A stretch of 64,000 bases of DNA, taken from assembly GCA_002794785.1 (NCBI GenBank), contig NBBA01000012.1:744001-808000 (forward strand), read 5' to 3'. How positions within the stretch are numbered: the stretch's first letter is position 1; every line of letters begins with the position of its first letter. The translations under genes and the position numbers were made by a program. The notes beneath the pieces are model-generated. The model worked only from the letters and a program-made list of their open reading frames with translations, was not told the DNA's origin and made no database searches. Origin of the DNA: Coniferiporia sulphurascens (Eukaryota; Basidiomycota; Agaricomycetes; Hymenochaetales; Hymenochaetaceae). Shown here one piece after another: positions 1,335 to 56,149 of the stretch.

Positions 1335-1423
1335 AAAGGTGAGCAGTATTAGCTTGGAATGTATGTAGTCTATCTGACAGCAACAAAGACACCTTTGTCC
1401 TTTCTGTCTTAGGCTGAACTTCA

Positions 1424-2044
1424 GTGTTGCCAACTTCTGGTTGGCTTCCAACCCTGTGCATCTCCATGGTGCCCACCAAGGACTACTTCTTTGGGCAGAA
1501 CACCCACACCATCAACAAGAAGACACTCTTGGCCGAGGTTATGCACAACCCAGCATTGAAACACCTCGAATTTGTCATCGCCCCTCACTACACAGCCACC
1601 GAGGATCACCTCCCCAATTTGGAGACATGCCCGGTTTCTTTTTCCTTCATCGACCTGGACGGCTCCATCTGTGAGCACCTGCTCAGGCACAACTGGGTGT
1701 GGATGTTTGGAACCTCCCTCAAGCTCTCGGTCCCCCCAGTCTGCCCCACACTCACTCAATGTGAGCGATGCCAGGGCCTGGGTCACAGAACGAAGGGCTG
1801 CAAAGCTCAGGCATGTTGCACCGAATGTGCAGGTCAGCACCTGACCCATAATCATTGTAAGTCCTGCGTCCACTGTGCTGCTGATGCAGTGGAGGGCGAC
1901 ATGTACCCCCACCCCCGCCAATGCAGCAACTGCAACGGCGACCACCCAGCTACCTTCCCCGCATGCCCCAAGAAGAAACGCTTCCGTGTAATCAAGGCGG
2001 CCTTGGCAGAGGAAACCAACCATGACATGGACGAAGAGTACTAA
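1424..2044 (+). pseudogene. LINE-2 ORF1, gag-like protein with CCHC-type zinc knuckles (N-terminally truncated)
   Basis: The frame resembles C-terminal halves of LINE ORF1 proteins. It has a segment starting LCISMVPTKDYFFGQN, then a Cys/His-rich region with CERCQGLGHRTKGC, CCTECAGQHLTHNHC and CSNCNGDHPATFPAC, each fitting zinc knuckles that bind RNA. Upstream residues continue in frame to 1372 but include a stop (TAG, about 1412), so the ATG at 1424 is not the original start. The stop codon TAA overlaps the ORF2 ATG by one base (TAATG at 2042-2046), a layout compatible with termination-reinitiation. Confidence 0.75.
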
Positions 2045-14238: not shown

Positions 14239-14572
14239 AGAGGGGGGAGGGGTGTAAGCCTAGGGGCTCACCACGATCACCCAACACAAATCGACAACCA
14301 ACACAAATCCAACATGGCCACTCCACCCTGCTTGGCAGAGCCGATGTGCAGGAACACTGCTCGACACTGACACATCCTGACAAGTGGCATCTATCAGCTG
14401 ATGCACAGGAAGCTGCTCCAACCCAACAGGTGGTACTGACATGCATGTTGGACTTGGCACATGACCAGTTGGACTCATCGGCTTGGTGCAGGAAGGATTG
14501 GAATTGGTGCAGACTGTACAGAACCATCATTACATAATGTTCCTGTTACTCCTGTCTGCTTTCCATACCTTT
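14239..14572 (+). mobile_element. Gypsy polypurine tract and partial 3' LTR
   Basis: AGAGGGGGGAGGGG at 14,239-14,252 is a textbook polypurine tract, placed about 110 bp after the chromodomain frame. It is followed directly by TGTAAGCC, the expected start of an LTR. The LTR runs to the Plavaka boundary at 14,573. I could not find its end there or beyond 32,635, so it is truncated or cut by the transposon. Confidence 0.7.
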
Positions 14573-14760
14573 CATCAGGAAAAACCCAGAATGCTATATA
14601 GTACTATATAACACTATATAATTCAAATAGAGCCCATAGGTAAAATAGGTTAATCTAGCCCTTCTTAGTCTAATATAGTGCTTTATAGTACTATATAGTA
14701 AGGAGGGCTACTATATAGTACTATATATTGCTATATAGCCCCCTTTCTCCACTATTTTGT
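14573..14760 (+). repeat. Plavaka left terminal inverted repeat and TATATAG subterminal region
   Basis: A 31-bp terminal repeat (14,573-14,603) is followed by repeated CTATATAGTACTATATAG units to about 14,745. The matching terminal repeat is at 32,606-32,635. Transposase binding is inferred from the analogy with CACTA elements. Confidence 0.75.
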
Positions 14761-14935
14761 ACTATTTTCTAACTATTTTTAACTATTTTCTTGCTATTTC
14801 AGCTATTTTCAACTATTTTCTGTCAGTTTTCAACTATTTTCCAGCTATTTATGACTATTTTCCAGCTATGTTTTGGCTATTTCTGACTATATTTGACTAT
14901 TTTGAACTATTTATGGCTGTCTCTGGCCTACAGAA
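14750..14935 (+). repeat. AACTATTTT tandem repeat
   Basis: About fifteen degenerate CTATTTT units (variants ACTATTTTCAG and ACTATTTTCC). A spurious 63-codon frame here is a by-product of the repeat. Confidence 0.85.
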
Positions 14936-15303
14936 ATCTCACAAATAACCAGTTTACAGGATGATCACAACCATTGCTTGGATTGTGTAGAACAAATTTT
15001 CTCATATCTATTAGCAATGAATACAAGCAGGAAATCATCTAAATCATCTATAAGTATAATGTAGAAAAATAACCAGTTACACAGTCAGTGTGGAAGAAAA
15101 GAAAAGATTCTGAGCAATGTATACAAGGTCACCTAAAAAGCATAACAGATGCTGCCTATGCCCTGGCAGTTAACTTCAAGCTAGGTTTAGAAGGAGACAT
15201 TAACTGGAATAATAGAAGGTCAGTGCTTACCTGTGCTGGTAGAACACTCAAGTATACACTGGCTGAATGGACAGGTTAGTCAGCTTTCAAGACATTATGG
15301 GAC

Positions 15304-15421
15304 ATGAGATAAACTGAGAAGAAATAAAACTATGGCAAGGCCACCTGCAAGCAAGGCCATAGTGAGATAGACTGAGAAGAAATGAAACTATGGCAAGGCT
15401 ACCTGCAAGCAAGGCCATAGT
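15304..15421 (+). repeat. Two-copy tandem repeat, about 59-bp unit
   Basis: The units GAGATAAACTGAGAAGAAAT... and GAGATAGACTGAGAAGAAAT... differ by a few transitions. The rest of 14,940-16,280 shows only short frames (for example a hydrophobic plus-strand frame at 15,938-16,171) that I cannot assign. It is part of the left arm of the transposon. Confidence 0.8.
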
Positions 15422-16289
15422 AGAGGAATGAAAATGTATTGATATGTACTCTTTAAGGTCATGCAAATCATTTGACACATGAGATGCAAGAAGCCTTATG
15501 AGAGATAATTGTTTTGTTGCAGCATTATGACACTCAGCCATTAATATAGAGGTGAGTGTGATATATGGGAATGTATGGGAGAGGGAAGGTAGTAGGATCC
15601 TATCATCCCCCTCCACATTATCCAAGAGATTTGTAATCCATAACACAAAATGCCAATTGTGGATATTTGCAAATGGCAAGATGGTGGTAGGAATAAAAGA
15701 AGCAGAAGACCCTGAAATAGTTTTTAAAGAAGCTGGTCACATGACAAACAAATATATACAAATAATCCTTTTATAGACATGTATATATACTAAACAAAAT
15801 CACTAATACGCCTGCTTGTCACTGCTTAGAACAGCTAGTAATCATTATGTCCTTGCCATTGTGAGTGCTCTAGTTTGAAGCTTACAACTTGTAAACTATT
15901 ATTTGTATCACAAGTGTCTATATATCTTAACTTGATGGAAGCTGAACAATGTGCAAAAACTCTTTTCTTCACTACTGCAACCCCCCATACCCCCATTACC
16001 CTAAGTCTCACAATTTGCAAGACTATCTTCCTTGTCTCCCTCCTTATTCTAGTTTCAGCCTCTGCTGTTTCTTCAGAGGCCAGCACAGGAACTTTAATAG
16101 GGGATTCAAACAATTTCAAACAGCAGCTCCTTGATATTAACTTCAGTGCATACTTGGTCCTAATTGGCTAATATAATATATAATTGCAAAAGTAAGAATG
16201 GATAGATTAGTTTATATGGGTTCTGAAAAATAAACAAACCCAGTCTTCATTAAATACAGCAACAAATAGGAATAATGGCTTACAAGATG

Positions 16290-18160
16290 CTGTGACTGAT
16301 CTTTCAAGTGCAGCATAGTCTATCTCTGCATCCTCATCCTCACTGCCACCATTAGGAATCCCAATTTTGGCATGTATACTTGTGAGTAATAAGTAAAACT
16401 TAGTTCAAATTCCATGGTTTAAAACAATCTGTCTCACCATGCATCTTTATAAAGCTGCTTTTGTATTGCTGCAATATAAGTGGGAGCTCTCTTGGGATAA
16501 GCCATGTCATTCAGTCTTTTCAAATGCTTGTGCCAGATAATTCTGAATGATTCCCCTTCAAATCTTTTCTGGAAAAAAGTCCCTGACTCATAATCCATTA
16601 AAATTGCCTCAATCTGTACTTATTTGTTTAGCATGTATTCTTAGTAGGATTAGATCACTTACTGAGGTAAGAATAAGTGCAATTACAGGAAAAGGAATGG
16701 GGTTGAACTTGTCCTGGAATTTGATACCATCTGCCTTTCTGGAAGAAAACCACTGCACTTGAAGAATCTGGCTGATAATAGGATTTGCAAATGGCTTCTG
16801 TTTATCATTAAAAAAATGGCTAGAGAGAATAGTAATATGACTCAAAATTAATCAGTAAATCTTGCATATAGACTACTCACATCCAGATGTATACCCCCAT
16901 ATGCAAATGCACCCCTATTAATAAGGACTTTAACAAGAGAGGCCACTTTTGCAGGATCACCATTGTTCAGATGGAAGGCAGTCACAACTGCCCCTGAGGC
17001 CTTTGTCTTGAGGTTCTGCCTTGCATTTGCAGTGTTTCTCCCAACCTGAATGGGATAAGTAAGTTGAAAGTGTATTGTTATCCTGATATGTACTTACCAC
17101 TTGTAATATAATGGTTTTGTAATGATCATCCAAATTCCATTTTCTTAGCTGTTCATCACTTCCTGGCCCAAGGCCAGATGGAGCAGCATCTCGAAAAGCA
17201 GAATAAACCATTTCTATCTTTTCATCATTTGTAGGGAAACCATTCTCTAGAGCAATAGATGCTCTAAATATCTTGCTAGCAGCCTGGGCCTGAGACCTGC
17301 TCCTGGGGTCTAGAGCTGAGAGGACTGCCCCTTTACTAGAACTGGTGCTCCTGCCAGTGGGCTTGTCCATTAGATCTGTATTTGGATCCTTTGGTTCATC
17401 CTCTGTTGCAGCTGGTGTTGCTACCTGACTGGACAGAGCCTGGGCAGATGGCTGAGGAAATTGACTAGGCACTATTGAGGTGCTTCTGTTGGATAATTCA
17501 CCTGTTATAATAAACTACAGGTGTGTAAGATACTGTGTACTTGGAAGGAAAGCTGATTTACATCACTGCGAGGCCTTTTTGCAGGCATCCTGGGTGTGCG
17601 CACAAGGTCTAGGCCATCTCCAGAGTTCTCAGCAAAAGTTGCAGTAGTTCACTTTCTTTTGACTGTGGATACAAGAATTAAAATAATGACAGCTAACTCT
17701 TAAGTGTGAGGATACTTTGTGTACCTGGACTTGGGATAGCTAAGGATCCATCTTCATTTTCCTCTTCATCTTGGTCTGAATCCAAAAGCTGTTGCCCACT
17801 TTCTTGTTCTCCTGGACCCAAATGGCCTGGGGGACCAGTTTCTGCACCAAGCCCATCAGAGAACTGAGTGGCAGGGAAATCATCTTCATCCTCCAACTGC
17901 ATCTGGGTTTTTGCCCTTTCCCTCACAGCTAAGAGGTGTAGAATTAGAGTTACTGAACAATAAATGTTTAAAATAAATTGCAATTTACCTTTTGCTCTAG
18001 CCTCTTCCAAAGCCTTGGAAGATTTTTCTGCCAGTGACTCAGCTAACCTCTTGTTAGCCTCTTCAAGCTGTTTCTGGAGCCTAGCTACTTCATTGGATGA
18101 AGCAAGGCTATTATCACCATTGGACTTCTTGCCCCTGGTTGTCTTTTTTTGTCCAGCCAT
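16290..18160 (-). pseudogene. DUF6532-like protein gene of the transposon's left arm
   Basis: The start at 18,160 gives MAGQKKTTRGKK, then a coiled coil (EVARLQKQLEEANKRLAE), an acidic linker (DSDQDEEENEDG) and a nuclear-looking KRPR stretch. Downstream exons carry the conserved core: WNLDDHYKTIILQV, ANARQNLKTKASGAVVTAF, FANPIISQILQVQWF, FNPIPFPVIALILTS, then after an intron EAILMDYESGTFFQKRF and FRIIWHKHLKRL, ending GGSEDEDAEIDYAALE. This order fits the DUF6532 family of basidiomycetes, whose function is unknown. One TGA lies in the exon near 17,645, so this copy is probably dead. A solo LTR sits 40 bp upstream of the start. Confidence 0.65.
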
Positions 18161-18199
18161 TCTGTTGTACAGAAGTAGAGGTAGAGGTAAGCAAGAAGG

Positions 18200-18476
18200 T
18201 GTAAGCTCAACGGTAACGGGATCGACGTCGGGGTGATATCGGGATGAGGATGGCAAGGGCTAGATGTGTAAGTCGAAGGTGATCGTGATGGGGCTGTCGG
18301 CGATGGGAAGGGAGGCTTATAGCAAGTCGGTACAACGAAGTGACAAATAAAGACACAGTGATGGTAGCAATAATTTTATGAAAAAGAGCACAAGCTTACT
18401 TGTGTATGAGTTACATGTTATATGTATCTATGTTTTTATTATCGTGTATTAGTATGTTTACATGCCTATGTAAAGG

Positions 18477-18543
<67 letters not shown>

Positions 18544-18563
18544 AAAAAAAAAAAAAAGTAACA
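18200..18563 (-). mobile_element. Solo LTR, family LTR-A copy 4, internally deleted and poly(T)-expanded (364 bp)
   Basis: On the minus strand it starts TGTTAC, then runs into about 79 T (plus-strand A tract, 18,479-18,557) where other copies have AATTTTCC. It rejoins LTR-A at CATGTAAACATACTAATACA and ends GAGCTTACA. GAAGG flanks both sides (18,195-18,199 and 18,564-18,568), a perfect target duplication. About 190 bp of the upstream U3 is lost. It points toward the DUF6532-like gene, whose ATG is 40 bp away, so it could supply that gene's promoter. Confidence 0.85.
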
Positions 18564-18694
18564 GAAGGTAATGGTAAGCAATAAAGATGTGTGCTTCCCA
18601 AAAAGGCAAATGATGTGTGATTTAAAACTGTATAGTTTTAATTTCCTTATTTGGAAAGCCACTATTCTTGTACCACATGTGATCTATTTACAAA

Positions 18695-19255
18695 TACAAT
18701 GTACAGCATAAAGGAGAGGATGCCTTGAGTCAGGTTTAGGGCTACAAAGTCTGGTGATCCAGGATGGCATTATCACAGATGGGGTATATAAAGCACTGTA
18801 GGTTCATTCAGGTCCGGGTTTGTCAGATTCTCGAGCCTTTTGACATGTCCCAGAAATTCATTGCTCATTAAGCCAATTTGACTTAATCTTAGTTCTGTCA
18901 AACCAGGGCAACGTTGAGCGAGGCACAACATACAGTCTATGTCAAAGCATGGGGATTGAGTGATGAGAAATCCAGTTAGTTGCAGGCAATCAATGAACAG
19001 AGACCGCCACTCTTCTGGTCTGATGAGGAAGGGGCCGAGCAGCTCTATCCTCCTGATCTTAGAGAAATGGTTTCTTCAGTATTTAATGGCTTTGTTGTCG
19101 ATTTGTCCACAAAAGTCGATCCGAAGACTTTCCAAGAATGGGTTAAGAGAGGCAGGAGTGCTAAACACGTTCGGGCCGTGCAGAGATGTGCTACACATGC
19201 CCCGCCCCTGACATATACACAAGAAATACCAGGTAGAACTCATTGAAAGGCGCTG
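18695..19255 (-). pseudogene. RAD7: Captured RAD7/Rhp7-like leucine-rich-repeat fragment
   Basis: Minus-strand translation gives, in order, ASLNPFLESLRIDFCGQIDN, IRRIELLGPFLIRPEEWRSL, LTGFLITQSPCFDIDCMLCL, CPGLTELRLSQIGLMSNEFL and LENLTNPDLNEP. This succession of leucine-rich repeats with the ELLGPFLIRPE and FLITQSP signatures resembles Rad7/Rhp7, which with Rad16 acts in global genome nucleotide-excision repair. The N-terminal half and the end are missing. One frame break (TGA after DNKAIKY) is present. The piece lies wholly inside the Plavaka transposon. Confidence 0.55.
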
Positions 19256-19366
19256 AAATTGTTGTTGTCATTGTCGTCTGGTAATACTTGTCACTATCAT
19301 CATCGCCGCAAAGACAAAACGAGGCTGTGCAAGAGGAATGGGTAAAGGGTCAGCCCATTCTATCAG

Positions 19367-19926
19367 TGTTACAATTTTCCTTTACTTTCCCCTTATTGCA
19401 CTGACTCACTTTCCCTTCATCATCATCAGTCAGCACAACTCCCCCATTTCTCTTCCTTACTCATCCTTATTCACCTTACACCATAAGACACCATAATGAT
19501 GCCATATCGCACCATCATGATGTGCTTTGCTTACTGATACCTTCAACTGTATTACCAAGGCATCCCTTGGGTTTCCATGACCTTCCATAGCCATGTAAAC
19601 AACCTTATACAAGACCCTACAGTAGCAAACACTTAGAGTAGCATATAAGCATGTAATGTAGATCGCACAAGCCCTAAGCTTGTGCTCTTTGTTCATACAA
19701 GCCCATTATATGCACCTCAGTGCCCTCTGTGTGTTATACCTCATCATCTGGCACTTTGTCGTAACCCGACTCTTCTAAGAAGACACCACACACCTTCTCA
19801 ACGATCAGGAAGCCCCATCGCTGATCATCACCACCTTATGACATCTAGGAAGCCCATTGCCATACTACCAGTCCCAATGATCAGGAAACCCTGACGTTGA
19901 TCACTGCGTAACTGTTGAGCTTAACA
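19367..19926 (+). mobile_element. Solo LTR, family LTR-A copy 2 (560 bp)
   Basis: It starts TGTTACAATTTTCC and ends GAGCTTAACA. ATCAG flanks both sides (19,362-19,366 and 19,927-19,931), a perfect 5-bp target duplication. It keeps the ATATAAG box, the AGCACAAG...CTTGTGCT-type hairpin and the GATCAGGAAGCCC repeats. Several differences from copy 1 are CpG-to-TpG or CpA. Confidence 0.95.
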
Positions 19927-19931
19927 ATCAG

Positions 19932-20578
19932 CACATCTGCATTTTTCAAAATGGAGGAACATTTGGGTGTCCTTTACAGAGGAAACAAAAGTCAACAGAA
20001 GGCATGCTCATTCAGACAGGGACACCACATACCGTGAGTGCTACATGGTCCTTTGCTCAAAGTACCTCCCAATATGGTAATGCTGAACTTTAATTTACAG
20101 GGGTATCGGTCCGCAGGTAGGGCTATCGACGTATATGTTCACAGCCAGGTGCAAAGGAAGGAATCTGTGATGCACAGGACTGGAAGGCTGGTGTGGCGAC
20201 ATGCGCTGGTTTGCATACACATCAGTCAAGTGAATGGCAAGCAGTCAGATGAAGAGGACAGCTCTATGAGCAAAGATGATGTACCATTCCTGGTACGTGC
20301 ATTCTGAGTTCATTGGGCATGGGGCACTGCATTACAATCCCATGGGTGCGAGTGGCAGCAGTGGTGGTAGAGTCAGAGGTGGGGGTGGGGGGTGCATGTA
20401 TGTGCATGTGTGTATGGACGAGTGCGTAGAGGCACTGTTTGTTGAAGCGAGGGAGCAGGCGCTGACAGGGGGACCGGGGACAGTGGTCCAGAATACGACT
20501 AGGTGGGAGACTGGTAGCAGAGGTGGGTGCAGGTGAGGGGGGAAGTCGGGGAGGGGAACTGGGCATGGCAGGGGCGGG
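19932..20578. other. Unassigned stretch before the zinc-finger cargo gene
   Basis: A plus-strand frame (20,038-20,307, 89 codons) is open but shows no recognised domain. Base composition changes toward GC- and CpG-richer DNA from about 20,100, so this may already be captured DNA. Confidence 0.35.
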
Positions 20579-22860
20579 ATGAGGGCGAGTGTGGTAGGTA
20601 AGAGGAGTGAGTCAGCATTGATGTCTGCATCCATGCCTGCACCTGTGGTCGAGAATGCTACGGCTTCGGCCAGGCATGCGCCGGTTGGCCAGGTTCAGGG
20701 CAGACAGGGTAAGGGTGGGGGCACTTCAGCTTCGGTTTTGGTTTCGGCTTCAGGCAGCGGTAGCACACACAAACGCAAATGTGAGCCCAAACACGAGCAC
20801 AGTGTGTTGCTGCACACGGAGGTGAGCGTATGGTCAAGGAGAGCTGCAAGTGACAAGGTCAAGGCTAAGGTCAAGGTTGAAGCTTTGTCCCCTTCCTATT
20901 CCCCTTCTCCCGTACCTGTGCGTGATGGTGGCGATAGCATCCGTGATTCGCCCCCCGAGATACGGGTAGGGATGCACAGAGCTAGGGTGAAGGCTGTATC
21001 TGCTATATGGCGCACCGTCCAACAGGAGGAAAAAGGGTCGGAGTCGGAGTCAGAATCCGAATCCAAGTCTGAGTCGGACTCTGCATCTGCCTCTGCTATC
21101 ATCAGCACTATCCCACTTTCCAGTAGTAGGGGCAAGGGCAAGGCAGTTAGTGCCAGCACTAGAATGGCTACTCTGCACAGAGGCTGCCCAGTGTCCATGG
21201 CAGGACCCTCAGCATCGCCTGCCTCTACACCATTACATGCTCCTACACCGTCTCAGAGGCAGAAGGCCTGCCAGAAGTTGTGTCATCTGTGCAGGAATAG
21301 CGGGAATCGGCTTCCGAAGATGGTGTGTGGGAGTATGAGGGAGAATGGGAAGGAGTGTCTGGTGCCGTATTGTAGGAAGTGCATTGAGAAGAGGTGCGTT
21401 GCTTATGCCACTCATTGGAAAATTTTGCGATGCTCTTGCTCACCACTCCTCCCCACTTTTTCTTCTAATTCTCTATTTTATTTTATTTTATTTTGATGGG
21501 CAAGACACTGATTTTTATTACTTGCCTCCGTTTTTAAAATCTTGTGCTCAAAAGGTATCCTGAGATAACTTTCGATCTCGAGGCCCCGTTTCGCTGTCCA
21601 AGATGCATGGGTATGTGTAATTGTGATGCGTGCATGAAGGGGTGTGGGGAGCGGTATATCAACACGAAGGAGTTCCAGGAGATGTTGCAGAAGAATGGGA
21701 TGGCGCCTGGTGGTATGCGGGCTGCAAATGTGAATGCAAGTGAAGTGGAGATGTGGAGGGTTGAGGTGAAGGTGGAACTGATGGATGTTGACGGGGAGGG
21801 GGAGGGTGAGCCAGTGGAGTGTCTGCTGGATGGGGTGAGAGGCTCTGGTGAGAAGGATGAAGAGATGCATAAACACTTCGAGCTAGGGGGAGAGGGAGGG
21901 GAGACCCCTGGCAACAACGGCTCGACACAGTGCGAGCATTAGGAACTGCGGCTCACCGCAGTAACAAATGGCGCTGCAAACTCACACAACGACAACGATG
22001 AGGCAGAGGGGCGCTCGATGCCAATTGGTATCCCTGTGAGCAGCCTTGCGATGAGATCGAGCTCGGGTCGGGTGGTGAAGCCATTGGTGAAGGCGCGGCA
22101 GCATGACATGGGGATTGAGGGAGAGGGAGAGGAGGAGGGGCCGGGAGGTCCTCTGAGGAAGAGGTGGAGAAAGCTTGTGACTGAGTCTGAGTCTGTGTGG
22201 CGCGATAGCCCTGTGCTTAATGGTGCGGTTCATAGTGTGGAGACTGCAGCAAATGCAGATGCAAACGCAGGCAACCCACCAACAACGACGTTGGGCTCAC
22301 TGCTTTCGGACCGTGATGTGCTTGGCAAGAGCAAAGATGGGCCCAATGGACGTGTAGATGCTCGCTCGTCTCAAGCGGGAGTGGAGGTGGACATGGAAGT
22401 GGACGGAACTGTGGTTGGCGAGGATCCGCCACTGCAGCAGCACATGGCAGACCCGGAAGAACTTATCACTGCCCTTGATGCGCTGCTGCCCTCGACGTCC
22501 CAGGACATTGGAAAACCGGATCATGCCGGCGCAGAAGAAGGAACGAGCAAGACGTACAGGGTTCATGTGAATGGCGTTGATGAGCACGTTCGGACGACTA
22601 ATGGTATGGGCGTTCAAGATGGACTAGGACAGATCCCGATCCAGCAAGCGTCCACTGTGTTACCAGGTCATGATGCTACTTTCAGCATGACGAGTAAAGG
22701 CGTAGAGGCGATGTGTGCGCTTCTTTGCGGTCTCCTCAGTGATACCCTTCTTGTGCATGCAATGGTACACCTGTGTCCATGTGATCTTGTGTGGGTTTTT
22801 ACGTTGCAGGAAGAGCGACTTGTTCTTGCTGTTGGCGAAATGAAAGACCTGCAGGGATAG
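20579..22860 (+). pseudogene. Captured 4CXXC-R1-type zinc-finger gene
   Basis: Exon 1 encodes a basic, Ser-rich N-terminus with an SE repeat (residues 150-165), then KLCHLCRNSGNRLPKMVC and CLVPYCRKCIEKR. An intron of about 160 bp (from about 21,394) follows. Exon 2 opens YPEITFD, then FRCPRCMGMCNCDACMKGCG. These Cys pairs match the zinc-finger domain of the monoamine-oxidase A repressor R1 family (zf-4CXXC_R1), a nuclear DNA- or chromatin-binding module. A TAG at 21,940 stops the frame, which then stays open and in phase to 22,860. The 3' 150 bp run antisense over the eL24 fragment, so the C-terminus is a capture artefact. Confidence 0.7.
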
Positions 22861-23000
22861 ATACACCGTCAGTATCAGAACTGGAGAAAGAACTTGTGTT
22901 GAGGACGCACTTTGCTGTCGCCATGGACGAACAGGTGCCCCTTGCTGGGGTAAATTTTGTAGTTTGAGAACAAGTCGATTTCAACCTTCTGCATAGCCAT
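22660..23000 (-). pseudogene. RPL24: Captured 5' part of ribosomal protein eL24 (RPL24)
   Basis: Exon 1 (23,000-22,911) encodes MAMQKVEIDLFSNYKIYPSK and GHLFVHGDSK. A 62-bp GT...AG intron (22,910-22,849) follows. Exon 2 encodes VFHFANSKNKSLFLQRKNPH, KITWTQVYHCMHKKGI and TEETAKKRTHR. This is the conserved N-terminal half of eL24, a large-subunit ribosomal protein. After KKRTHR homology stops, and 15 unrelated codons lead to a TAA. The kept intron shows it was taken from genomic DNA, not from mRNA. The truncated product lacks the C-terminal helix, so ribosomal function is unlikely. Confidence 0.85.
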
Positions 23001-23095
23001 CAGCACTGTTCAAGCTAGACAGAAATGAAGGAACGCACCATCAGTAACATGTTTGTGCAATTACGAGCATGCTGTATGTGGCAAGTGTGGCCATG

Positions 23096-23419
23096 GGAAT
23101 TGTATAACTTATTAGGAAAAAATAATAAAAATTCACTTTCTTTCATCAGGCTCAAACCTAGGACTTGGCCCTCCTACCACAGCAGCTGGGGGAAACCCAC
23201 AAAAAAACATAAGATAAAATAAAGAAAAATGGGATTTGGGGTGGCATTTTCATACCTAATCGATACCATATGTGCTGCAGTTAAGCATAGGTCCACCACC
23301 TTACACAGTATCTGCTGCCAATCCCAGTAGTGGATGCATAAGGTTCGGAAACCCGAAAGCACCTGACTCTAAGCGAGCCTCAATACGGTTTGGAAACCAC
23401 TCAACCACTGAGCCATTCA
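23096..23419 (-). mobile_element. tRNA-derived SINE (about 324 bp)
   Basis: The minus-strand head reads TGAATGGCTCAGTGGTTGAG, a good RNA polymerase III A box. Further on is GGGTTTCCGAACC, a B-box-like motif. The body is unrelated to tRNA and the tail is T/A-rich. GGCCATG flanks both sides (23,089-23,095 and 23,420-23,426), a possible 7-bp target duplication. It sits between two captured gene pieces. Confidence 0.55.
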
Positions 23420-23466
23420 GGCCATGAAAGTGCTCGCTACTATGAGCCCTATGACCCCTCTTTGAC

Positions 23467-23503
23467 TAATAAGATTACAAACTGTCACCTTGTAATCTTA
23501 TTA
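23467..23503. repeat. Perfect 14-bp inverted repeat with 9-bp loop
   Basis: TAATAAGATTACAA, loop ACTGTCACC, TTGTAATCTTATTA. It could be a terminator-like hairpin or a foldback scar. The rest of 23,504-23,866 holds one open minus-strand frame (115 codons, hydrophobic) without family features. Confidence 0.75.
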
Positions 23504-23866
23504 CTCCTTTGTAACTAATCCACTGTTATTTGGTCTCTCAAAGTATTTAAATTTAAATTTACCAACAGCAGTACATATCGTGATTGCTGAACTCAGTTCT
23601 GCATTGATGTTAGAAGATAGAAGAAATATAGAGATAAAACAAAAGACAAATGTGCATCTCCATACATTTGCATCGTCATTGTCTGGTCTTGATTTCCACA
23701 TGCACGTATGTGCCAGTATGGGGATAATCACCACTTGACCGGAGCAAATGCCTATCTTGACAATAACGACGACAATGAAGAAAACACACTTCAACCACAG
23801 CCGCCTTGGCTCGCCTTTACTGAAACCCACAAACTTCTCAAACTGCATCTCACCCTGCTATGACAT

Positions 23867-24596
23867 ATGCAGACTGACCTTGAACGACATCTAGGCAGTG
23901 GCGTGGAGGAGCCTGTCCCAGTGCCACCCGGTATATCCACGATCGCAGCGCCATTCGATGGTATCTCGGAGCGTCCTCAGGAGTTTTACATACAGTCATC
24001 AACAGGATGGAAGAGTGCACTCGATAAATTGCGCAATTCATCGGGGAGCCGTGAGGAGGCTCTAGGTCATGAGCGCCGGGAGCAGGAAGCGGAGGAATCT
24101 ACAGCAATCATTGCCGGCTGCCGTGAAGATATGCATGCTCTCTGGACGGAAAGCGTCATACAGCAGATGCTTGATCGGTGCAAGCATTGTCTTGAGGACT
24201 GTGCAGGATTGTAAGTTAGTCAGCTACTCTTCATGTTCTCCCTCTAATGAAGACGGCTGCACGAAGCTTCCTCAATGACGTGGAATGTGTAGTGGTGCGC
24301 AAATACGAACCATCAGATGATGATATCATCCGCATGTGCCTATGCACAATGGGCGTACAAGAGCATCGTTTCTTGTTTGAGCGGGGTGCTGAGGCAGGGC
24401 AAGAGTGGCTAATGTACGATGTCGGGGGAACGTGTACTTTGCGACATGTGTGGGCATCTTTCTTCGACAATGTCAATGCAATCATCTTCCTTGCTCCAAT
24501 TTCGTGCTTCGATGAGAAACTAGTGGAGGACCGATGTGTGAATCGTCTTGAGGACTTGTTTCTACTTTGGAAGGCAGTCTGTTCAAACATCAGTTG
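23867..24596 (+). pseudogene. Captured internal fragment of a G-protein alpha subunit
   Basis: Exon 1 encodes part of the helical domain (FYIQSSTGWKSALDKLRNSS, CREDMHALWTESVIQQML, CLEDCAG). An intron from about 24,212 follows. Exon 2 encodes FLNDVECVVVRKYEPSDDD, MGVQEHRFLFERG, then WLMYDVGG (switch II) and FDNVNAIIFLAPISCFDEK and VNRLEDLFLLWKAVCSN. The P-loop (GxGxxGKS) before it and the NKxD motif after it are absent, so it cannot bind GTP. It resembles the expanded alpha-subunit paralogues of Agaricomycetes. The frame is open, suggesting recent capture. Confidence 0.85.
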
Positions 24597-24599
24597 AGG

Positions 24600-25790
24600 C
24601 AGTAATGGTGGTGTTTCCATATTGATGAACATTGATCCATCCGTGTACATACTAGAGGCTTGTGCAATCGCCATTGAAGTAGGGGATAGTGACCAAGGTG
24701 TACTTGGTCCGATACTGTCATTGCAACTGATACTTGCATGACGACTGCGAGGCTCTGTCAAACTGCTGCCAAAAGTCCCGCTGCCTCCATGACCACAACC
24801 ACAACCACTATTGCCACCCATGCCGCCCCGCCCACGATATTGACAACCGTCTTCGTGCCCATGCCTGCATCCCCTACCCCACTCCCATCCATGACCTCTT
24901 CCTCGGCCACTTTCGTGCCCAAAATCTCTCTGCCGGTCTGAGACATTCTGCCTGTCTTCCCCAAGCCGTGCAGATGTCGGTTCTGATGAGATAGAGGTGG
25001 GTATGTCTTGATATGGATCGTCAACTCATCATAAGGCAAAGGAGATGGACGCAAGGGTCCGGGAACCACATCCATATTGTAAGGTCCATATTCGTCATAC
25101 GGCAACGTGCCGTAAACGTTGTCTTCGGTCATTTCGTGATCATGCATTTGTGATGGTGTTGGTGTAGAGAGCAGGCCCTGTGTTTGTGATTCGGTCTGTG
25201 GAGGCGACGGTGTGCGATCCGTCTCCGTCTCCGTCTCTGGTTCCGGCTCCAAGATATGTGTCGAGATGCGCCACGGTTGTGGGACATGTAATGCAGTGGA
25301 AGAGGCATGGGCAAGAGTAGAAGGACAAGGGGCTGCTGCAGCCACAGACACCACGCTTTCTTGGGCTTGATCTTGAGCCTGAGTGTGGAGGTGTGGTTCT
25401 GTGGCATGACACGCAAGAGTGGGTGAGGACCCACCGCAAGAAAGTGGTCGTTCAGGATAGTAACTTAAGCCTGTCTGATACGAATGTGCATAGGCTGATG
25501 ATCCCGTCTGTGTGTTAACACTGGAGGCCGGGTACAGGTAAGATGGAGTCTGCCTCACTGATTCCCTCCCACTTGCACTTCCGGTTGCGCTCCTGATCTG
25601 GATGGATGACTGTGGGGCAGCTTGGTACACATATTTGTACCCACTGCTAGAGGGGCTGGGAACATGAGTCAACCCAAGTGCACTGGCGAGTACCAGTGCT
25701 GAAGATGTAGAGTTAGAAGTTGAAGTAGGGTAGGCAATAGGTCTTTGCTCACGATTCAGTGCACATAGCTGAGGACACATGCACAACACC
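24600..25790 (-). pseudogene. Captured Ser/Pro/His-rich gene fragment of unknown identity
   Basis: A 343-codon minus-strand frame (25,789-24,758) is rich in Ser, Pro, Thr, Gln and Tyr, with EPEPETETETD. A second frame (24,821-24,600) with FGSSLTEPRSRHASISC and NMETPPLLPQLM looks like its true continuation after a frameshift near 24,830. The composition resembles disordered tails of fungal transcription regulators, but no domain is present. It abuts the G-alpha fragment at about 24,597 and native transposon DNA at about 25,800, so it is probably a further captured piece. Confidence 0.45.
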
Positions 25791-25853
25791 TGTTGACGGC
25801 TCGCTCACCAACTTGAACAGAAACCACCACTGCCAGCATCCATTCCCCCACCA

Positions 25854-28319
25854 TGCCACCAGCAGCTCATAACCCAGAAGTAACCAAGTACAAGAATGGA
25901 AGACCAAAATTGCCAACCTGAGAAGAGGTCATTGCAAAAGCAGTGGCTAATGCAACTTTTGAGCCTACTGCTGGGTCCAAGCAAGCTGCAGCTTCACATC
26001 CAAGCCATGTTCGGATGACACTACAAGCTCATAAAGCAGTAGGAGAGGCTGTAAAGCCAAGTGATGAGCATACATCAGCAACAGAAACCAATGCTGGTAC
26101 GTTGCTAAACGTGTAAACAGCTGCTGACTAATCCCTGTTCTGACATGTGGCACAGGCACAGGCACAGGCACAGGCAGTGCTGACCAATCGGAGTTGATTC
26201 AAACAATGAAACAAAAGCAGAAGGATTTCCAAGTGAGTTCTAATCCTTTTTAAGATCTATAGCCTGCTTAAATTTTTAAAGGGAATGACTAGACAGGAGA
26301 AGAAGGACTATTGTGCAAGCTGTCACCTTGCTCAATTTGAGACTACACCTGGGGACAGTGCAGATCAGCAGCATCCCAAGCCTGCTTCCAAGAGCCATAC
26401 AGATCAGAAAGCCAAGATCACTGAGAATAATAACCAAAGGACCAAGGAAATTGCAGCTTGTATTAATACATTTGTCTGCTGGGAACCATCTCATGGAAAA
26501 GCCCCCTGTGGCAATGATGGATGCACATTTGCAAGTAAGTCTATCTGATACCTGATCTTTGAGAATATTCTAATTATTAGAAGACAAGGAAATAACTGCT
26601 GGTGACCTAGTCATGGTGCAGCCTATGCCAGGATCAAGATCTGCAGATGTCTGTACTATCTTCCCTCCCTTCTCTGGTATTTAGATACTGATATTGTGTA
26701 TAAACAGGGCTTCATACCCACTCTTCCAATTTATCAGCACTTCAAATGCATCAGCAAATATGCTCTTGCTCAACTTGAAGACCCAAGCACCTATCACCTC
26801 TCCAGATTCCTTGATGATGATCAGGAGGCTGGTATAAAGGATGCAATTTCTGATGCTGTTTCTTGGGTAGCAAAAAACCCTTGCCAGGCTCCAAGTTCCC
26901 AGGACATCAGTGCACCCCTGCACAAGTCCAGTCTCTCTAAGAGGCAATTCAAGTGCCTGCTTAGGTCTGGGAAGAAATCTGCAGCAGCATACCATGCAGA
27001 ACACACAGCACTTTCCCAGAGTCTAAAGCATAGAGCTGAAAGGTCTGCCAAGTATGCAGCACACAAGATGGAGGTTAAACTTCAGGCAGATGTCAGGAAG
27101 GCCAGAGAAGAGACTGAAAAAGTCAAAGCAGAGGTTGAGAGTGTCAAATCAAACCTTTTGAAGACAATGGAGGAGAAGGAGGCAGTGGAGAAGGAGCTAA
27201 AGGAATCAAAAGATTTTGCAGATCTACTAACAGGCCTTCTGAACAAGAAAGAACAGAGAAGGCTAGCACAGAAACTCAGGAGGAAGCTGACCTATTGTTA
27301 CAATTTTCCTTTACTTTCCTTATGGCGCTGACTCACTTCTTATTCATCATCATCAGTCAGCGCAACTCTCCCATTTCTCTGCCTTACTCATCCTTATTTG
27401 CCTTACACCATACGACACCATGATAACGCCTTATTGCACCATCATGACATGCTTTGCTTACTGATCACCGTACTTGTATTACCAAGGCCTTCCTTGAGTT
27501 TCCATGACCTCCCATAGTCTGGCAAACATACCTAACCAAGTCGCTACAGTAGCAAACACATAGAGTGGCATATAAGCATGTAACTTCAGCAGCACAAGCC
27601 CTAAGCTTGTGCTCTTTGTTCATACAAGCCCATTATCTGCCACCACCAGTCTACTGTGCGCCAGTATACCACGAGTCGCTTTGTCGTAACCCGACTCGCT
27701 ATAAGAAGCCTACCATGTCCACATTGTTGATCAGGAAGCCCCACCAACAATCACTTTCGACTTACAACATCTAGGAAGCCCCGTTGCCGTATCATCAGTT
27801 CCGATGATCAGGAAGTCCCAGCGTCGATCACCGCATAACCATCGAGCTTAACACCTATGAACATGGGCTTGAACTGCATAATATGATCCACTTTGACACT
27901 ATGCAACTCCACACCTTAATCCTGCATACCCATGAAGCCATCCACAGTGATGAAGGTATCAGGAGTGTTATTAGGGATGCCATTGAAAGTGCACATCCTG
28001 GAGAGGGGGACATATATATTAGGAAAATGGAGTACAGAGCCAACAGAGGTATAGTGTGTCTTCTCAATACATTAGCATACTAACATCTTGTCTTTTTACA
28101 GGACCTCATGGATATATTTGTGGAGATTTCAGGGGAGAAAGTTCCAAGAAATTGGTTGAATCCATTGAAAAGGGGTTGTATTTGGTTGATACAGAGGTAG
28201 ACTGGAAGAAAGGACTAGATGCCAAGAAGGCTGGAAACAATAAGGCTGAGGGTCCTGTGGAAATGGAGGTGGATGAGCTGGAGGATTTGATAGCAGAAGC
28301 GGCACAGCTTGGTGAATAA
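25854..28319 (+). pseudogene. Plavaka accessory gene: Cys-rich, coiled-coil protein, split by a solo LTR
   Basis: The start at 25,854 gives MPPAAHNPEVTKYKNGRPKL, then a TGA after LPT. Exons continue through KKDYCASCHLAQFETTPGD (possible metal site), FVCWEPSHGKAPCGNDGC, and IPTLPIYQHFKCISKYALAQ. A long Lys/Glu-rich coiled coil follows (about 27,060-27,285, EETEKVKAEVESVKS). The solo LTR at 27,296-27,853 interrupts the frame; it resumes in phase with EHGLELHNMIHFDTMQ and ends EMEVDELEDLIAEAAQLGE. The function is unknown. Its place directly upstream of the transposase suggests a partner protein. Confidence 0.55.
27296..27853 (+). mobile_element. Solo LTR, family LTR-A copy 3 (558 bp)
   Basis: It starts TGTTACAATTTTCC and ends GAGCTTAACA. 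CCTAT flanks both sides (27,291-27,295 and 27,854-27,858), a perfect 5-bp target duplication. It is inserted in an exon of the Plavaka accessory gene. Compared with copy 1, CATCGTCGATC reads CATTGTTGATC, the pattern of CpG deamination. Confidence 0.95.
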
Positions 28320-28456
28320 TACATTTGAAAAGAGTTAGATAATTAGATAATCATGCTGACATATATTGTCTTTGAAATACATCCCCACTCAGTCAATTTT
28401 CCCACACCTATCTTGATCTTGAACTACCATCATCCCTTGCCAATTACTCTACAATC

Positions 28457-31400
28457 ATGAACAGCTTCAGAAAAACCTCACTCCTCCAACAAACAAAAAT
28501 TGACTGAATCTGTCCTGCCTGTGGAACTGACTTCCCATCCATTCGTGGGAGGAACATTCACCTTTCCAGGGCTGAAAGCTGCAAATGGTACAATAAAGGG
28601 AAATTTTCAGAACTTGTCTCCACATATGTTCCAAAAGGTGAAAATCTTGAGGATGACCCTCCCAGTGCTATGGAAGATGATAATGCTGACCCTCTTAATT
28701 GGGATGATGGGTTTGTGATGGATGGGGATGACTATGCACCAGTTTCTGTCTCCCACACAGACCATATGCCAGGGACATTGTATGAGGGCTTACCCAAACC
28801 ACCAAAACGAGCCCATATAGATGAAACTCCCACAGTCTGTGACACCCACCCAACAGCAGGAAGGGTTGTGGGGCATGCACAGACAGCTCAAGAATACAAG
28901 GATGCCCACCCCATAGATAACAATTCCAGATCAACCAATCTATATGAACCTTTCACATCTGAGCTTGACTGGATGGTGGCAAAGTGGCTCATTCAGGATA
29001 GTTCTGGAAAGTCGGCATCAGACAGGCTTCTAAAAATCCCAGGGGTAAGTTATGTAGTGTATTTAACTTTTTTTCCAATATAGTGAACTCTACTTTTCTT
29101 AAAGCTTGTTGACAGGCTTGGATTGTCTTTTCACAATATGGACAATCTATACAAGAAAATAGACAAGCTCCCAGGAATGGCCCCATGGCATGAAACTACC
29201 ATTAGACTTGCCAATGAACCAGATGAAGCCCATCTCATTCAGTATCGTGATCCTATTGAAGCTATCAAAAGTCTATGGAGAAATCCTACATATGCAAAGC
29301 ACATGGTCTATGTGCCAATGAAGATGTGGGAAAATTCAGATCGAGACTCAAGATTGTACAATGAAATGTGGACTGGTAAATGGTGGTGGACAGTGCAAGT
29401 GAGCTACCTTCACAATATTTTCACAAAAATACCTAAGCAGGCTTCTTTTTAGGAGCTACTGCCAATAGGGGCAACAGTTGCTCCTGTTATTATTTCAACA
29501 GATAAAACCCAATTAACCAATTTCTGTGGGAGCAAACAGGCCTATCCAGTCTATCTAACAATTGGCAACATCCCCCGTGCTATCCGGAAGAAGCCAACCC
29601 AGAGAGCCTGTGTACTCTTGGCATACCTATCCACAGATAAAATAACATCTGCCAATCTCTCCCCAGATGAAATCAGACACAAGACACATTGCCTTTTCCA
29701 TGAATCCATGAAATGCATATTAAAACCCTTAGAGAAGGCTGGAAGGGAGGGCATAGACATGACTGGAGCTGATGGTGACATCTGGAGCAATTTCCCCATT
29801 GTAGCATGCTACCCTGCCGACTATCCTGAGCAGTGCTTGGCTACATGTGTCAAATATGGAGGGTGCATTCTATGTGACAAGGGGAAAAAGCAAGTTGGAG
29901 ATCCTGGAATTGGTGAACTTCGCACATCCCAGAAAACTTTGGACATTATTGATGAAGCTTTAAACCATCCAAAATGAGCATTCCATACTGTTTGCCAAGA
30001 TCCGGAGAACAATCTCAATGGCCATGTCCACAGCCCATTCTGGGAGAACCTACCTTATCTCAACATCCATGCATCTATGACACCTGACATTCTCCATCAG
30101 CTCCATGGAGGAGTATGCAAACATGTATTGGGATGGGATCAGCTGGCATTACCACAGAAAGTGTTTGACCAGCAGATAAAATCACTTCCTCCTTCCCATG
30201 GTATCTGGCATTTTCCAAAAGGGCTCTCTAGCTTAACAAATGTGTCTGGGACAGAGCGCAAGCAAATGATGAAACTATTACTTGGTGCCATTGCCAATGG
30301 TGTTCCCAAGAAAGTGGTAATTGCAACACAGGCCATCCTGGACTTTACATATATTGCACAGTATCCCAGCCACAGTGAAGAAACTTTAGGGTACTTGGAA
30401 GATGCCCTTGAAACATTTCACATGCACAAATCCATTTTTATTGAGCTTGGGATACAATCAGACTTTGAAATTCCCAAACTTGCATCCCTACCTCATTACA
30501 AATCATCTATCATAAACTTTGGTGCTACAGACAATTATAGCACTGAGCTATTTGAGCACCTACATATCAACTTTGCAAAACAAGCTTTTTGGGCATCAAA
30601 CAAGAGGGAAGAAAGGCCACAGATGTTAAAATGGCTTGACAGACAGGAGAAAATTGCTTCATTCCAGCAACTCTTGGCCATACACACTCATGAGGAAGAG
30701 TCATTGTCACCACTACTTAAAGCAAGGCAGGGACAACCCATACTATTGGCAAAGATTGTGCCATTCCCCAACAGAAATATTGATCTGGTGATGGAAGAAC
30801 ACAGAGCACCATGGTTCCACCCCTTGACCTCTAACCACCATCATCTCACCCAGCGCACATCCACCCACACCACCCCTAAACTCCCTGGGTTAACCACCCA
30901 CACCAGTCTCCCTCACAGTAGACATCCGTCGAGCTGTTTTTTTCGGCCTTGTTCATCATTCCACTCCCCTTTCCCCCCATCCCCCCATGCCCCCTTCTAT
31001 TCCTTCACCTCCCAGTGCCAAACTTCAAAACCAATACCACATATGAACCTTTCAACCTCGTCAACGAAAATCAGCACATATTAGAATGGGCCATACGCCA
31101 GTACAAACTACAGGTTATCAGCATTATTGACCAACCACACAATTCACGACATATCTTTCTCTACCAAGAACACCTCAACCTTTATGGCCCATGCATGGAC
31201 TTAACATCAGTCCTCCTACAATTCACAGTCAACCTCACACCTCATGGCAACCTGCCCCTAGCCTCATGCACACATGCCGCTCCAAGCGCTGTCACGTCAC
31301 CCCTCTCAGAGTCACAAATCTCGGACATTAAACAATTCAAACCACACCCACCCACACATCACAAAAAATTGAGTAGTTTCTCCCACCTTACACATTCAGC

Positions 31401-31631
31401 ATTAGCCATCATAGAATCCATAAAACCGCCACCCCCTCCTACACAATTTGTTCTTCCAATTCATATCCCACCTGACAAAATCATTTAGTTACTTCCGACC
31501 ACAAAACTTCCTACCCATCCATCGCCTTAAGCCCAGAAACTTTATACCTTGTTAATCTCCTCTGACACTACACTTCATATGGTCTCATATCCGCGTCTTT
31601 TACTATGTAATGTAGCGGTATACAAATGCAG

Positions 31632-31665
<34 letters not shown>

Positions 31666-32369
31666 CACCATGGTTCACTTGGTATCTCAAGGAGTACCTG
31701 TACAAACATGGATTTATGAATACCTATGGCCAAAGGGTTCAAGACTATCCCCTTCCCTTCTCCAACATCAATGTTTGGACAACTGTGTGCCTGTGCCATC
31801 AGGACATACAAGGACTTGACAAGGACAAGGAAGTCATGGACTCATTTCATGCATGCCCAGAAAGAGTTGATAATCGAGGGAAAATCATTCCAGCACACTT
31901 TGACACAGCGCTTGTTGAGGTGGACCCAGCTGAATCAGACTTTCAGGAAAATACTAGTCTTGATGGTAAGGGTTATGTTTACATCTTGATTTCCTCACTA
32001 ATGGGTGATTCAGGTACACGAGCAGGAAGAGTTAAGATTATATTCTCCCTTCCAAGGTCATTCACAGACAATAGCCTTGGTGTGCCACATGAGCCATTAG
32101 CCTTTGTAGATTGGTACACCAGAGCCAGAGCAGAGCCAGATGCAGCTTCAAGGTTCTATGAGATCAGAAAGCACAAGGAAAGGGGCACTGGAGAAATAAT
32201 AGGAGGGATCATCTGTTTATCTCAAATTCGCCATAGCATTCAGTTGGTGCCAGTATTTGGGAATGGAAAGGCAAATCCATCTTGGAAATCACATACTGTC
32301 CTAGATGACTGTGATACATTTTATATAAACAACTGGGGAAGTCTTCATACCTACCAATCAGTGTATTAG
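28457..32369 (+). pseudogene. Plavaka transposase, broken by TGA stops and a retroposon insertion
   Basis: From the ATG at 28,457 the frame reaches a TGA, then a C2H2-type finger (CPACGTDFPSIRGRNIHL, CKWYNKGKFSEL). The conserved body follows: YEPFTSELDWMVAKWL, an intron (29,045-29,104), LVDRLGLSFHNMDNLYKKID, MYNEMWTGKWWWTVQ-like LYNEMWTGKWWWTVQ, an intron (29,398-29,451), VIISTDKTQLTNFCGSKQAY and PVYLTIGNIPRAIRRKPTQR, DYPEQCLATCVKYGGCILC, a TGA at about 29,976, HSPFWENLPYLNIHASMTPD and ILHQLHGGVCKHVLGW, and NFAKQAFWASNKREERPQML. After the inserted retroposon it resumes and ends FYINNWGSLHTYQSVY. It would cut and rejoin the transposon ends. It belongs to the RNase H-fold, CACTA-related Plavaka group. 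Confidence 0.85.
30818..31664 (+). mobile_element. Poly(A) retroposon sharing the LINE-1 leader, with perfect target duplication
   Basis: It starts CACCCCTTGACCTC and ends in about 29 A (31,636-31,664). GCACCATGGTTC (30,806-30,817 and 31,665-31,676; 13 bp if an A is counted) flanks both sides, so the insertion is fully delimited at about 847 bp. The first 130 bp match the LINE-1 leader at 1334-1200. The rest is different and contains an open frame ending at 31,488 (TYEPFNLVNENQHILEWAIR, VLLQFTVNLTPHGN). No polymerase is present, so it is a non-autonomous derivative moved in trans. Confidence 0.9.
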
Positions 32370-32454
32370 CCGTGTCATGTACATTTCACCACTGCTGATG
32401 GACCATAGTTGAAATATTCTAAAATAGACAAAATACTTTGTATAATCATGTATA

Positions 32455-32635
32455 TCAGTGGCAATACTATATACAGCTATTAACTACAATATAGTAGCAT
32501 TGAGTGACTATATAGTACTATATAGTACTATATATGCTATAATACATATAGGGCACAAATATAGTTGCATATATTGCTATATACCACTATATAGCTCTCC
32601 TGCCATACTATATAGGATTTCGGGTTTTCCTGATG
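32455..32635 (-). repeat. Plavaka right subterminal TATATAG region and terminal inverted repeat
   Basis: CTATATAG and AGTACTATATA units fill 32,455-32,605. The terminal repeat is 32,606-32,635 and matches 14,573-14,603 in inverted orientation with a few mismatches. Confidence 0.75.
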
Positions 32636-32647
32636 TTGTTGCCTCAG

Positions 32648-50689: not shown

Positions 50690-50911
50690 ACCCACAAATC
50701 TCTACTAACCAGTGTGCTTCCGCATTTGTTATACTCCCCTCGTCTTTCTTTTCGGGCTGCCTATTCAATATTATATTCTTTCCGATTTCGTGCTGTTCGT
50801 TGTCGTGGCTCTTTCTTTGCTCGCCTCAACCCTTTCTCATGTATGATCATCGTCAGGTACATCAACGTATTGTATAGCTCACTCTTGTTACTTAAGGCTG
50901 GCTCTGTCTTT

Positions 50912-52479: not shown

Positions 52480-52731
52480 AAGGTCGCTCAGGAGTCAGCA
52501 GTAGTGGGACAGCACAACAACTGACGCAGTCTTTGCAAGATGCATTGTTATTATGGCTTGGGAAAGACCCTCGCTTATCTAGTTGTACACTAACACAAAA
52601 CGCTAGCAGCAAGGAGTGATCGGAGTGTGAAGATGTTCGATGGGGTTATCGCGCGTCTGGAACTGATTGATATTGTACAGTGTAAATAAAAGAAAGGGAC
52701 GACCATCGAAATGAATAGACTAGCAGGTATC

Positions 52732-55930: not shown

Positions 55931-56149
55931 TGAGAGCAAGAAAGAAAGGAACAAGGAAACGCGGCAGTAACAGCAAAAAGTACAGGGAATAGGAGGTGGC
56001 CGCACGCACAGGTGCGTCGGTGGCAGTCGAATCCGAACAGGACGCGAACCAAACATGCGTGACACAACTCGTAACGACGCGTCTGTCACGCGTGCGAATT
56101 CAAATTTCTCCATATTTTTTAATAGCATTATGTACTACTCCCGGCAGCC
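55931..56149. promoter_or_regulatory. Shared promoter region of the Cep57-like gene and BMS1
   Basis: Only 219 bp separate the two start codons. It contains CGTGCGTC/ACGCGTCTGTCACGCG-like CpG-rich segments and an AT-rich TATTTTTTAATAGC block 20-45 bp before the BMS1 ATG. Bidirectional use is inferred. Confidence 0.5.

Follow-up and report, generated by a model that had tools for sequence, protein, structure and literature searches.

Plant (PMC1947982, PMC8903248) and animal (PMC8277862) DNA transposons are known to capture fragments of host genes, and hAT and Tc1/Mariner elements capture genes in an ascomycete (PMC3538342). In Agaricomycotina, the PlavakaB families of the CMCT clade have CATCA..TGATG ends and target duplications of 2 or 3 bp, and their captured gene is a TET/JBP dioxygenase that is thought to aid escape from silencing (PMC12730594). 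Here, we describe an element of the basidiomycete Coniferiporia sulphurascens that has the same Plavaka transposase, the same CATCA...TGATG ends, and a 2-bp target duplication, whereas its cargo consists of many decaying fragments of unrelated host genes. The element lies in a window (i.e., the whole stretch of DNA analyzed) of 64,000 nt, which corresponds to C12:744001–808000 of an assembly of 39,347,566 bases in 31 contigs (labeled C1, C5, C7, etc.); positions without a contig label are window positions. The original prediction for this window, which was made from its sequence alone, had called positions 14573–32635 a giant gene-capturing Plavaka transposon, or "Pack-Plavaka." We consider it likely that copied host genomic DNA accumulates in this PlavakaB family within the spacer that separates two outward-facing gene modules.

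Among the described systems, the plant Pack-TYPE elements (Pack-MULE and Pack-CACTA) are alike in having gene fragments between terminal inverted repeats that are duplicated and moved with the element; however, they are defined as non-autonomous (PMC8903248), whereas here a transposase gene is present, broken in the window copy and open in a sister copy on C20. Because it carries a (broken) transposase gene, the element is not a strict Pack-TYPE element, and the name "Pack-Plavaka" is apt for the host fragments between inverted ends but not for the non-autonomy that it implies. Tgm-Express1 of soybean, one element of the CACTA superfamily, also contains pieces of five unrelated host genes together with their introns, but it is a 5.7-kb element in one gene (PMC1947982), whereas the fungal elements described here form a family that has transposase genes, more than one set of cargo (several in all), and nesting of the pieces. 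The animal Pack-TIRs, for which gap-filling has been proposed, may be alike in that a break inside the element is filled from elsewhere with small gaps and microhomology, whereas single-copy Pack-TIRs favor nearby sources (PMC8277862); the window copy instead matches sources on other contigs, its family seems to have made captures serially and in a nested manner, and cargo has been carried to new sites. Finally, transduplication by hAT and Tc1/Mariner elements of Pyrenophora tritici-repentis is alike in that fungal DNA transposons carry host-like genes, but those elements carry an H3-like gene or, in the other family, two coding regions in near-identical amplified copies, and no many-locus patchwork is described in the available part of that report (PMC3538342). 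Patchwork capture by Plavaka was not found in the literature that we searched by title and start of abstract. The search thus does not contradict the original prediction that capture is undescribed for Plavaka, although that statement needs to be narrowed for TET/JBP in PlavakaB, a known captured accessory gene (PMC12730594). As far as these sources go, our results add a group of fungal transposons, so far linked with capture of the TET/JBP accessory gene, to those in which genes are captured as patchworks.

A PlavakaB element and its insertion site

The element spans 14573–32635 (18,063 bases), beginning with CATCAGGAAAAACCC at 14573 and ending with GGGTTTTCCTGATG at 32635; comparison of the flanks and of unoccupied sites places the two copies of a TT target site duplication at 14571–14572 and 32636–32637. 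The predicted limits were therefore exact by both the termini and the TT duplications, whereas "giant" is generous for an element of this length. The matched inverted ends and TATATAG subterminal regions that had been predicted are both present: the left terminal inverted repeat (CATCAGGAAAAACCC...) with its TATATAG-rich subterminal region (14573–14960, plus strand) is matched in the five other long copies, and the right TATATAG region with its terminal inverted repeat (...GGGTTTTCCTGATG; 32400–32635, plus strand) was located by the end search. The predicted Plavaka transposase is likewise borne out by matches to PF18759 in Pfam (E values 4.9e-56 and 2.1e-12) on two open stretches on either side of an in-frame stop. 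Because a Plavaka transposase domain is combined with CATCA...TGATG ends and a 2-bp target duplication, window positions 14573–32635 are one PlavakaB transposon.

A search of the assembly for other copies and for an empty site had been set beforehand, and both other copies and unoccupied paralogous sites are present. Both element ends match well at six loci, i.e., the window copy on C12 and copies on C20, C16, C25, C1, and C7. Target duplications agree in the five of these six long copies in which both termini are readable (TT, TA, TG, TG, and AA), all of them of the 2-bp length seen in PlavakaB; the left terminus of the C7 copy was not found by the terminal pattern. The window copy is inserted within repeated sequence, and when its flanks are joined, 35 of the 43 listed matches run over the join by hand count, a number that excludes two matches that pass the join by a few bases and six that do not pass it (two of these six are the flanks themselves). 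Three of the join-crossing paralogous sites were aligned to the flanks and are identical around the join. Unoccupied sites were aligned for two copies, the second being the C16 copy, which has its unoccupied counterpart at C12:60505–60723 (81% identical, no gap at the join). Because the unoccupied paralogous sites continue over the insertion point, the window copy is a single insertion, and its ends do not come from different elements.

Captured host gene fragments and their movement

The cargo spans about 18731–25744, and its pieces match loci on other contigs (C1, C5, C7, and C9). With a solo long terminal repeat (LTR) set aside, 5463 of the 6454 bases of this middle region (85%) match such loci, or 90% if a core shared by related elements is included. 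From left to right, the pieces are derived from a RAD7-like leucine-rich repeat gene (18798–19181, minus strand; donor C9:1365577–1365960, 91% identical), an unnamed C5 locus (19184–19362; C5:585134–585306, 84%, by coordinates and identity only), a zf-4CXXC_R1 gene (20305–22709, plus strand; donor C1:386200–388637, 84%, intron kept), a ribosomal protein eL24 gene (22715–23045, minus strand; donor C7:861786–862130, 86%), the 3′ end of a RING-type gene (outer piece, 23577–23737, minus strand; donor C7:200890–201050, 88%), a G-alpha gene (inner piece, 23736–24588, plus strand; donor C1:49227–50079, 93%, intron kept, no gaps), a NAF1-like gene (inner piece, 24590–25170, minus strand; donor C1:4238310–4238882, 89%), and again the RING-type gene (second outer piece, 25174–25744, minus strand; donor C7:199266–199938, 88%). 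A control stretch of 7701 bases (window 50000–57700), which has the same length as the query of the donor search, matched nothing but itself. No source was found for 23430–23576, and none for 19927–20304 among the 40 candidates, of 858, that were scored; in 18731–18797 there is nothing but one 62-bp match (85%, C11:1251194) that reaches into it.

The RAD7-like, 4CXXC-R1, eL24, and G-alpha pieces had all been named in the original prediction, and all four align to donor loci on other contigs; the prediction of at least four host genes also holds, as the block contains NAF1-like, RING-type, and C5 pieces as well. In Pfam, the captured R1 piece matches zf-4CXXC_R1 (E value 3.9e-05) with 24.2 bits, above the cut-off of 22.7, while the donor frame falls below it with 19.4; the eL24 piece matches Ribosomal_L24e (E value 5.6e-13) and the G-alpha piece matches G-alpha (E value 8.4e-30). 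The RAD7-like label stands for the donor, whose best PDB match is RAD7 (E value 1.1e-13), but not for the captured piece, which has no Pfam match. The NAF1-like donor matches Gar1/Naf1 with 24.7 and 25.5 bits, under the Pfam cut-off of 29.3, and the match lies outside the captured part. The RING-type donor has no Pfam match of its own but is an open frame of 997 codons that in a protein homology search matches a Coniferiporia weirii protein at 88% over 99% of its length; Pfam accessions are listed for the Coniferiporia homolog, and we take these to denote RING-type domains. An open frame of 348 codons (24761–25804, minus strand) covers the point at which the NAF1-like piece meets the RING-type piece, has no Pfam match, and is possibly a chimeric frame. 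Annotation pipelines may call such fragments genes.

Host gene fragments thus lie between terminal inverted repeats as in Pack-TYPE elements. The further Pack-TYPE feature of copying from genomic DNA, which had also been predicted, is seen in the G-alpha piece, aligned to its donor over 853 bases without gaps, intron included, and in the retained R1 intron, with the donors still present. Together, these results support one Plavaka element that holds host gene fragments from genomic DNA. The direction of copying can be read from CpG transitions: for the six donors with aligned DNA, and with alignments under 80 bits left out, donor CpG corresponds to captured TpG or CpA at 289 sites, and the reverse is found at 19. 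The pieces in the transposon are therefore the derived, CpG-decayed copies. These counts exclude two C6 comparisons (3:1 and 6:9). C6:772871–774303 had been a candidate eL24 donor and was rejected, as its CpG polarity is flat (6 versus 9 in the main stretch, 3 versus 1 in a small one) and it carries the central core, i.e., it is another transposon copy without polarity, whereas the eL24 donor C7:861786–862130 has a clean polarity of 15 versus 0. Outside CpG sites, the pieces differ from their donors by about 6.6% (R1), 5.7% (eL24), 5.0% (RING-type), 3.6% (RAD7-like), 3.1% (NAF1-like), and 1.6% (G-alpha), values that were obtained by hand arithmetic and include selection on the donors.

The middles of the six long copies contain four cargo sets: one in the window copy, one common to C16 and C20, one of which most is common to C25 and C1, and one in C7. 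The C16 and C20 middles align over 6463 columns with 96.4% identity, while their 1.5-kb flanks do not match each other, and non-CpG divergence of this pair is alike in the cargo (0.79%) and the backbone (1.20% left, 0.95% right). The flanks of C25 and C1 have a single 54-bp inverted match, between the right flanks. Because members at unrelated sites have the same cargo set, cargo moves with the element: the captured patchwork has moved in C16/C20 and, less cleanly, in C25/C1. The mobilization of captured DNA that characterizes Pack-TYPE elements is accordingly a result for these two pairs, and the window set lies outside it.

The sources of the C16/C20 and C25/C1 sets are on C11, C13, C1, C15, C8, and C10, and those of the C7 copy on C13, C1, C7, C11, C19, C9, and C8. 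Few Pfam domains were recognized in the other cargo stretches, namely an HMG box, a CH domain, and Rpb1 domain 6, with a cellulase below the cut-off, in scans that covered 10 of 26 listed frames for each of three stretches. From C11, the two pairs contain separate, nonoverlapping segments. By coordinates only, the donor regions C13:935664–937469 and C11:1496633–1500028 are represented in at least two cargo sets, in part by segments that differ; this may reflect either common old captures that were trimmed differently or preferred donors.

Proposed serial capture and alternative explanations

Several models compete to explain how host genes are acquired by DNA transposons. Nested pieces and surviving donors give the order of capture, the size of breaks, and the mode of joining within one genome, and the models can therefore be distinguished here. 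In the C7 copy, matches follow the order C7:225644–227293, C11:1487879–1488357, C7:227309–228668, i.e., an older C7 piece is interrupted, with about 15 bp of the donor missing. In the same copy a C19 piece is interrupted by two C1 pieces and a C9 piece, and the C9 piece is itself interrupted by a C8 piece; about 8 bp are missing from the C19 donor (C19:281454/281463) and 5 bp from the C9 donor (C9:1173232/1173238). In the window copy, the G-alpha and NAF1-like pieces split the RING-type gene in two. In six of six comparisons, the inner piece resembles its donor more than the outer piece resembles its own, three times by 0.5–0.8 points only, as judged from length-weighted mean identities of pieces chosen by hand. 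Abutting pieces overlap by 0–3 bp, a range that may include chance overlap, or leave 1–5 bp unassigned.

From this anatomy, we infer that breaks were filled one after another with copies of genomic DNA. A double-strand break would arise in the spacer, either because gap repair failed after excision or for some other reason, and would be mended with a copied stretch of some unrelated locus that is joined with little or no homology. With its ends and gene modules intact, the element would remain mobile, and its cargo would therefore be carried on and added to by later breaks. Host CpG methylation, as suggested by the decay pattern, would then decay the captured copies; in the window copy, later insertions have also broken the transposase and a partner gene. 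Animal Pack-TIRs have a median gap of 4.6% of element length and a median microhomology of 2 bp (PMC8277862), and the small gaps and short overlaps of the nested C7 cases may correspond to that report of gap-filling, while the window gap is about 950 bp. Failed repair after excision is one possible origin of the breaks; such repair, the same paper argues, should leave larger deletions near the ends (PMC8277862). The position of the cargo in mid-element fits repair from both ends but also fits selection against insertions in genes. We tentatively suggest, at slightly less than even odds, that the spacer is a long-term trap for broken-end repair: gap repair would fail time and again and, proceeding inward from both ends, would load the middle with copied host DNA. 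If so, the family would keep a nested, datable record of captures and continually shuffle host exons while retaining its own genes and mobility.

Several observations weigh against collection of copied host DNA in the spacer as we propose it. The window's own cargo set is present in one copy only. Simple comovement predicts otherwise than the 3.66% non-CpG divergence of the C25/C1 cargo compared with 1.90% and 1.56% for the backbone. In the window RING-type gene, about 950 bp of the donor are missing between the two pieces, and a clean insertion is therefore not shown there. In three of the inner/outer comparisons the margin is at most 0.8 points, and because pieces recur among all six, these are not independent. 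About 10% of the window middle is without an assigned source, some neighboring pieces are separated by longer unassigned stretches, and the C5 piece and the sources of the other copies rest on coordinates and identity with no aligned DNA. The control is one stretch that was chosen without regard to transposon content, and the anatomy of the copies is the sole basis for the proposed breakage and copying.

The alternative that survives best, although we regard it as unlikely, is that one complex template-hopping event (from A to B and back to A) made each patchwork at once. Template switching can produce an A-B-A order, and there is little homology at the junctions; however, the divergence from donors varies within one copy, from about 1.6% outside CpG sites for G-alpha through 3.1% for NAF1-like and 5.0% for RING-type to 6.6% for R1. 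Across cargo sets, the sources common to both pairs (C11, C13, and C8) are 85–89% identical in seven of the eight listed stretches, whereas the pair-specific pieces from C10 and C15 are 93% and 91% identical to their sources. This age trend between sets, which points weakly toward serial capture, has exceptions that would suit a single event: the eighth stretch, from C13 in the C1 set, is 93% identical, and the piece from C1:2058200 that is found in C16/C20 only is 88% identical and thus no closer than possibly older pieces, which also counts against serial capture.

Less probable still is aberrant excision of closely spaced copies, in which two neighbors whose terminal deletions complement each other become one element and trap the intervening host DNA. 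This model has been put forward for the nearest plant relatives, the Pack-CACTA elements of Arabidopsis, as told in a review (PMC13317346), and closely spaced family ends do exist, for example, on C6. However, the window copy has sources scattered over several other contigs (C1, C5, C7, and C9), and fusion of neighbors does not yield small pieces inside older ones with about 5–15 bp of the outer donor missing. We find it very improbable, although no search aimed at Helitrons was made, that another mobile element brought the fragments in and became nested in Plavaka. Helitrons, for example, are known carriers of gene fragments in plants and animals, but Pleurotus Helitrons do not capture host gene fragments, according to the same paper (PMC4289320), and in our copies abutting pieces overlap by 0–3 bp or leave 1–5 bp, and the three clearest nested cases lose bases of the outer donor rather than gain a duplication. 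Nor can the block be attributed to an LTR retrotransposon, a carrier suggested by the resemblance of the solo LTRs at 19367–19926 and 27296–27853, as each has its own 5-bp duplication. A chance patchwork, pseudogene graveyard, or assembly error between Plavaka ends, to which the occurrence of the window set in one copy only might point, is hardly credible given that two copy pairs at unrelated sites have patchworks in common, that unoccupied sites point to one insertion, and that the single control stretch is without such matches.

Central core, gene modules, and later insertions

Within the cargo span lies a central core of about 345 bp (23086–23429, minus strand) that sequence comparison finds to be common to related elements and that has tRNA-like boxes. 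The core was aligned in eight copies (the window copy and loci L032, L061, L056, L062, L053, L049, and L065) and has an invariant motif, ATGGCTCAGTGGTTGAG, at one end and a mostly conserved motif, GGGTTCGAGCCC, with a T run at the other; we take these to resemble a D-arm/A-box and a B-box, respectively. The middle of the core differs between two groups of copies. The core may be an RNA polymerase III unit; Rfam and ARAGORN gave nothing for it. The core was also considered as a piece of a host gene, a possibility that we rejected, as 20 of the 22 matching places (its own included) have a listed family end no more than about 11 kb away; the matches at C11:409639 and C1:32829 have no family end listed nearby.

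The cargo is flanked by two modules. The left module (approximately 15290–18160, minus strand) contains the leftward partner gene or genes, has matches to DUF6532 below the Pfam cut-off, and is collinear with the other five long copies except for insertions. In the right module, gene 1 (approximately 25853–28316, plus strand) matches no Pfam family and is split by a solo LTR, and the Plavaka transposase gene (approximately 28456–32369, plus strand) is split by a poly-A insertion and the in-frame stop. The motif CILC is visible in the transposase translation; the motifs of PlavakaB are C(2)C and H(3–4)H between the second D and the last E.

The element holds four later insertions, two solo LTRs and two poly-A insertions. 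The solo LTRs are at 19367–19926 (plus strand, duplication ATCAG/ATCAG) and, inside right module gene 1, at 27296–27853 (plus strand, duplication CCTAT/CCTAT), and because of these separate 5-bp duplications we read them as two independent insertions. One poly-A retroposon-like insertion (18201–18562, 7-bp duplication AGAAGGT) is without counterpart in the other five long copies; the second, in the transposase gene (about 30818–31663, plus strand, duplication about GCACCATGGTTC), is absent in four other long copies, and the fifth, C1, is without that region. Because an LTR breaks right module gene 1 and a poly-A insertion and a stop break the transposase, the window copy is probably unable to move itself; in the sister copy on C20, 667 codons of transposase form an open frame.

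Right module gene 1 (25741–27292) is mostly 77–80% identical to the other copies, although its last 286 bp are 88% identical to C7, and the adjoining backbone is about 87–98% identical to the other copies; with its low identity in gene 1, the element looks as if it were a mosaic of two lineages. In the C1 copy (L055), a 5.4-kb insertion between 265-bp direct repeats that are 97% alike occupies about bases 1050–6516 of the joined copy, and single copies of its direct repeat are also found within cargo regions. A repeat of 257 bp that occurs in the middles of C1 and C25 was considered as a miniature inverted-repeat transposable element, but the 5.4-kb insertion also has it on both sides in direct orientation, which makes an LTR the more likely identity. 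Finally, a shorter related element family, at C12:725171–733642, has the same kind of middle (L065), with pieces that match other loci (donors and family members unsorted), including a 1.8-kb stretch that matches C1:1198476–1200272 with 91% identity.

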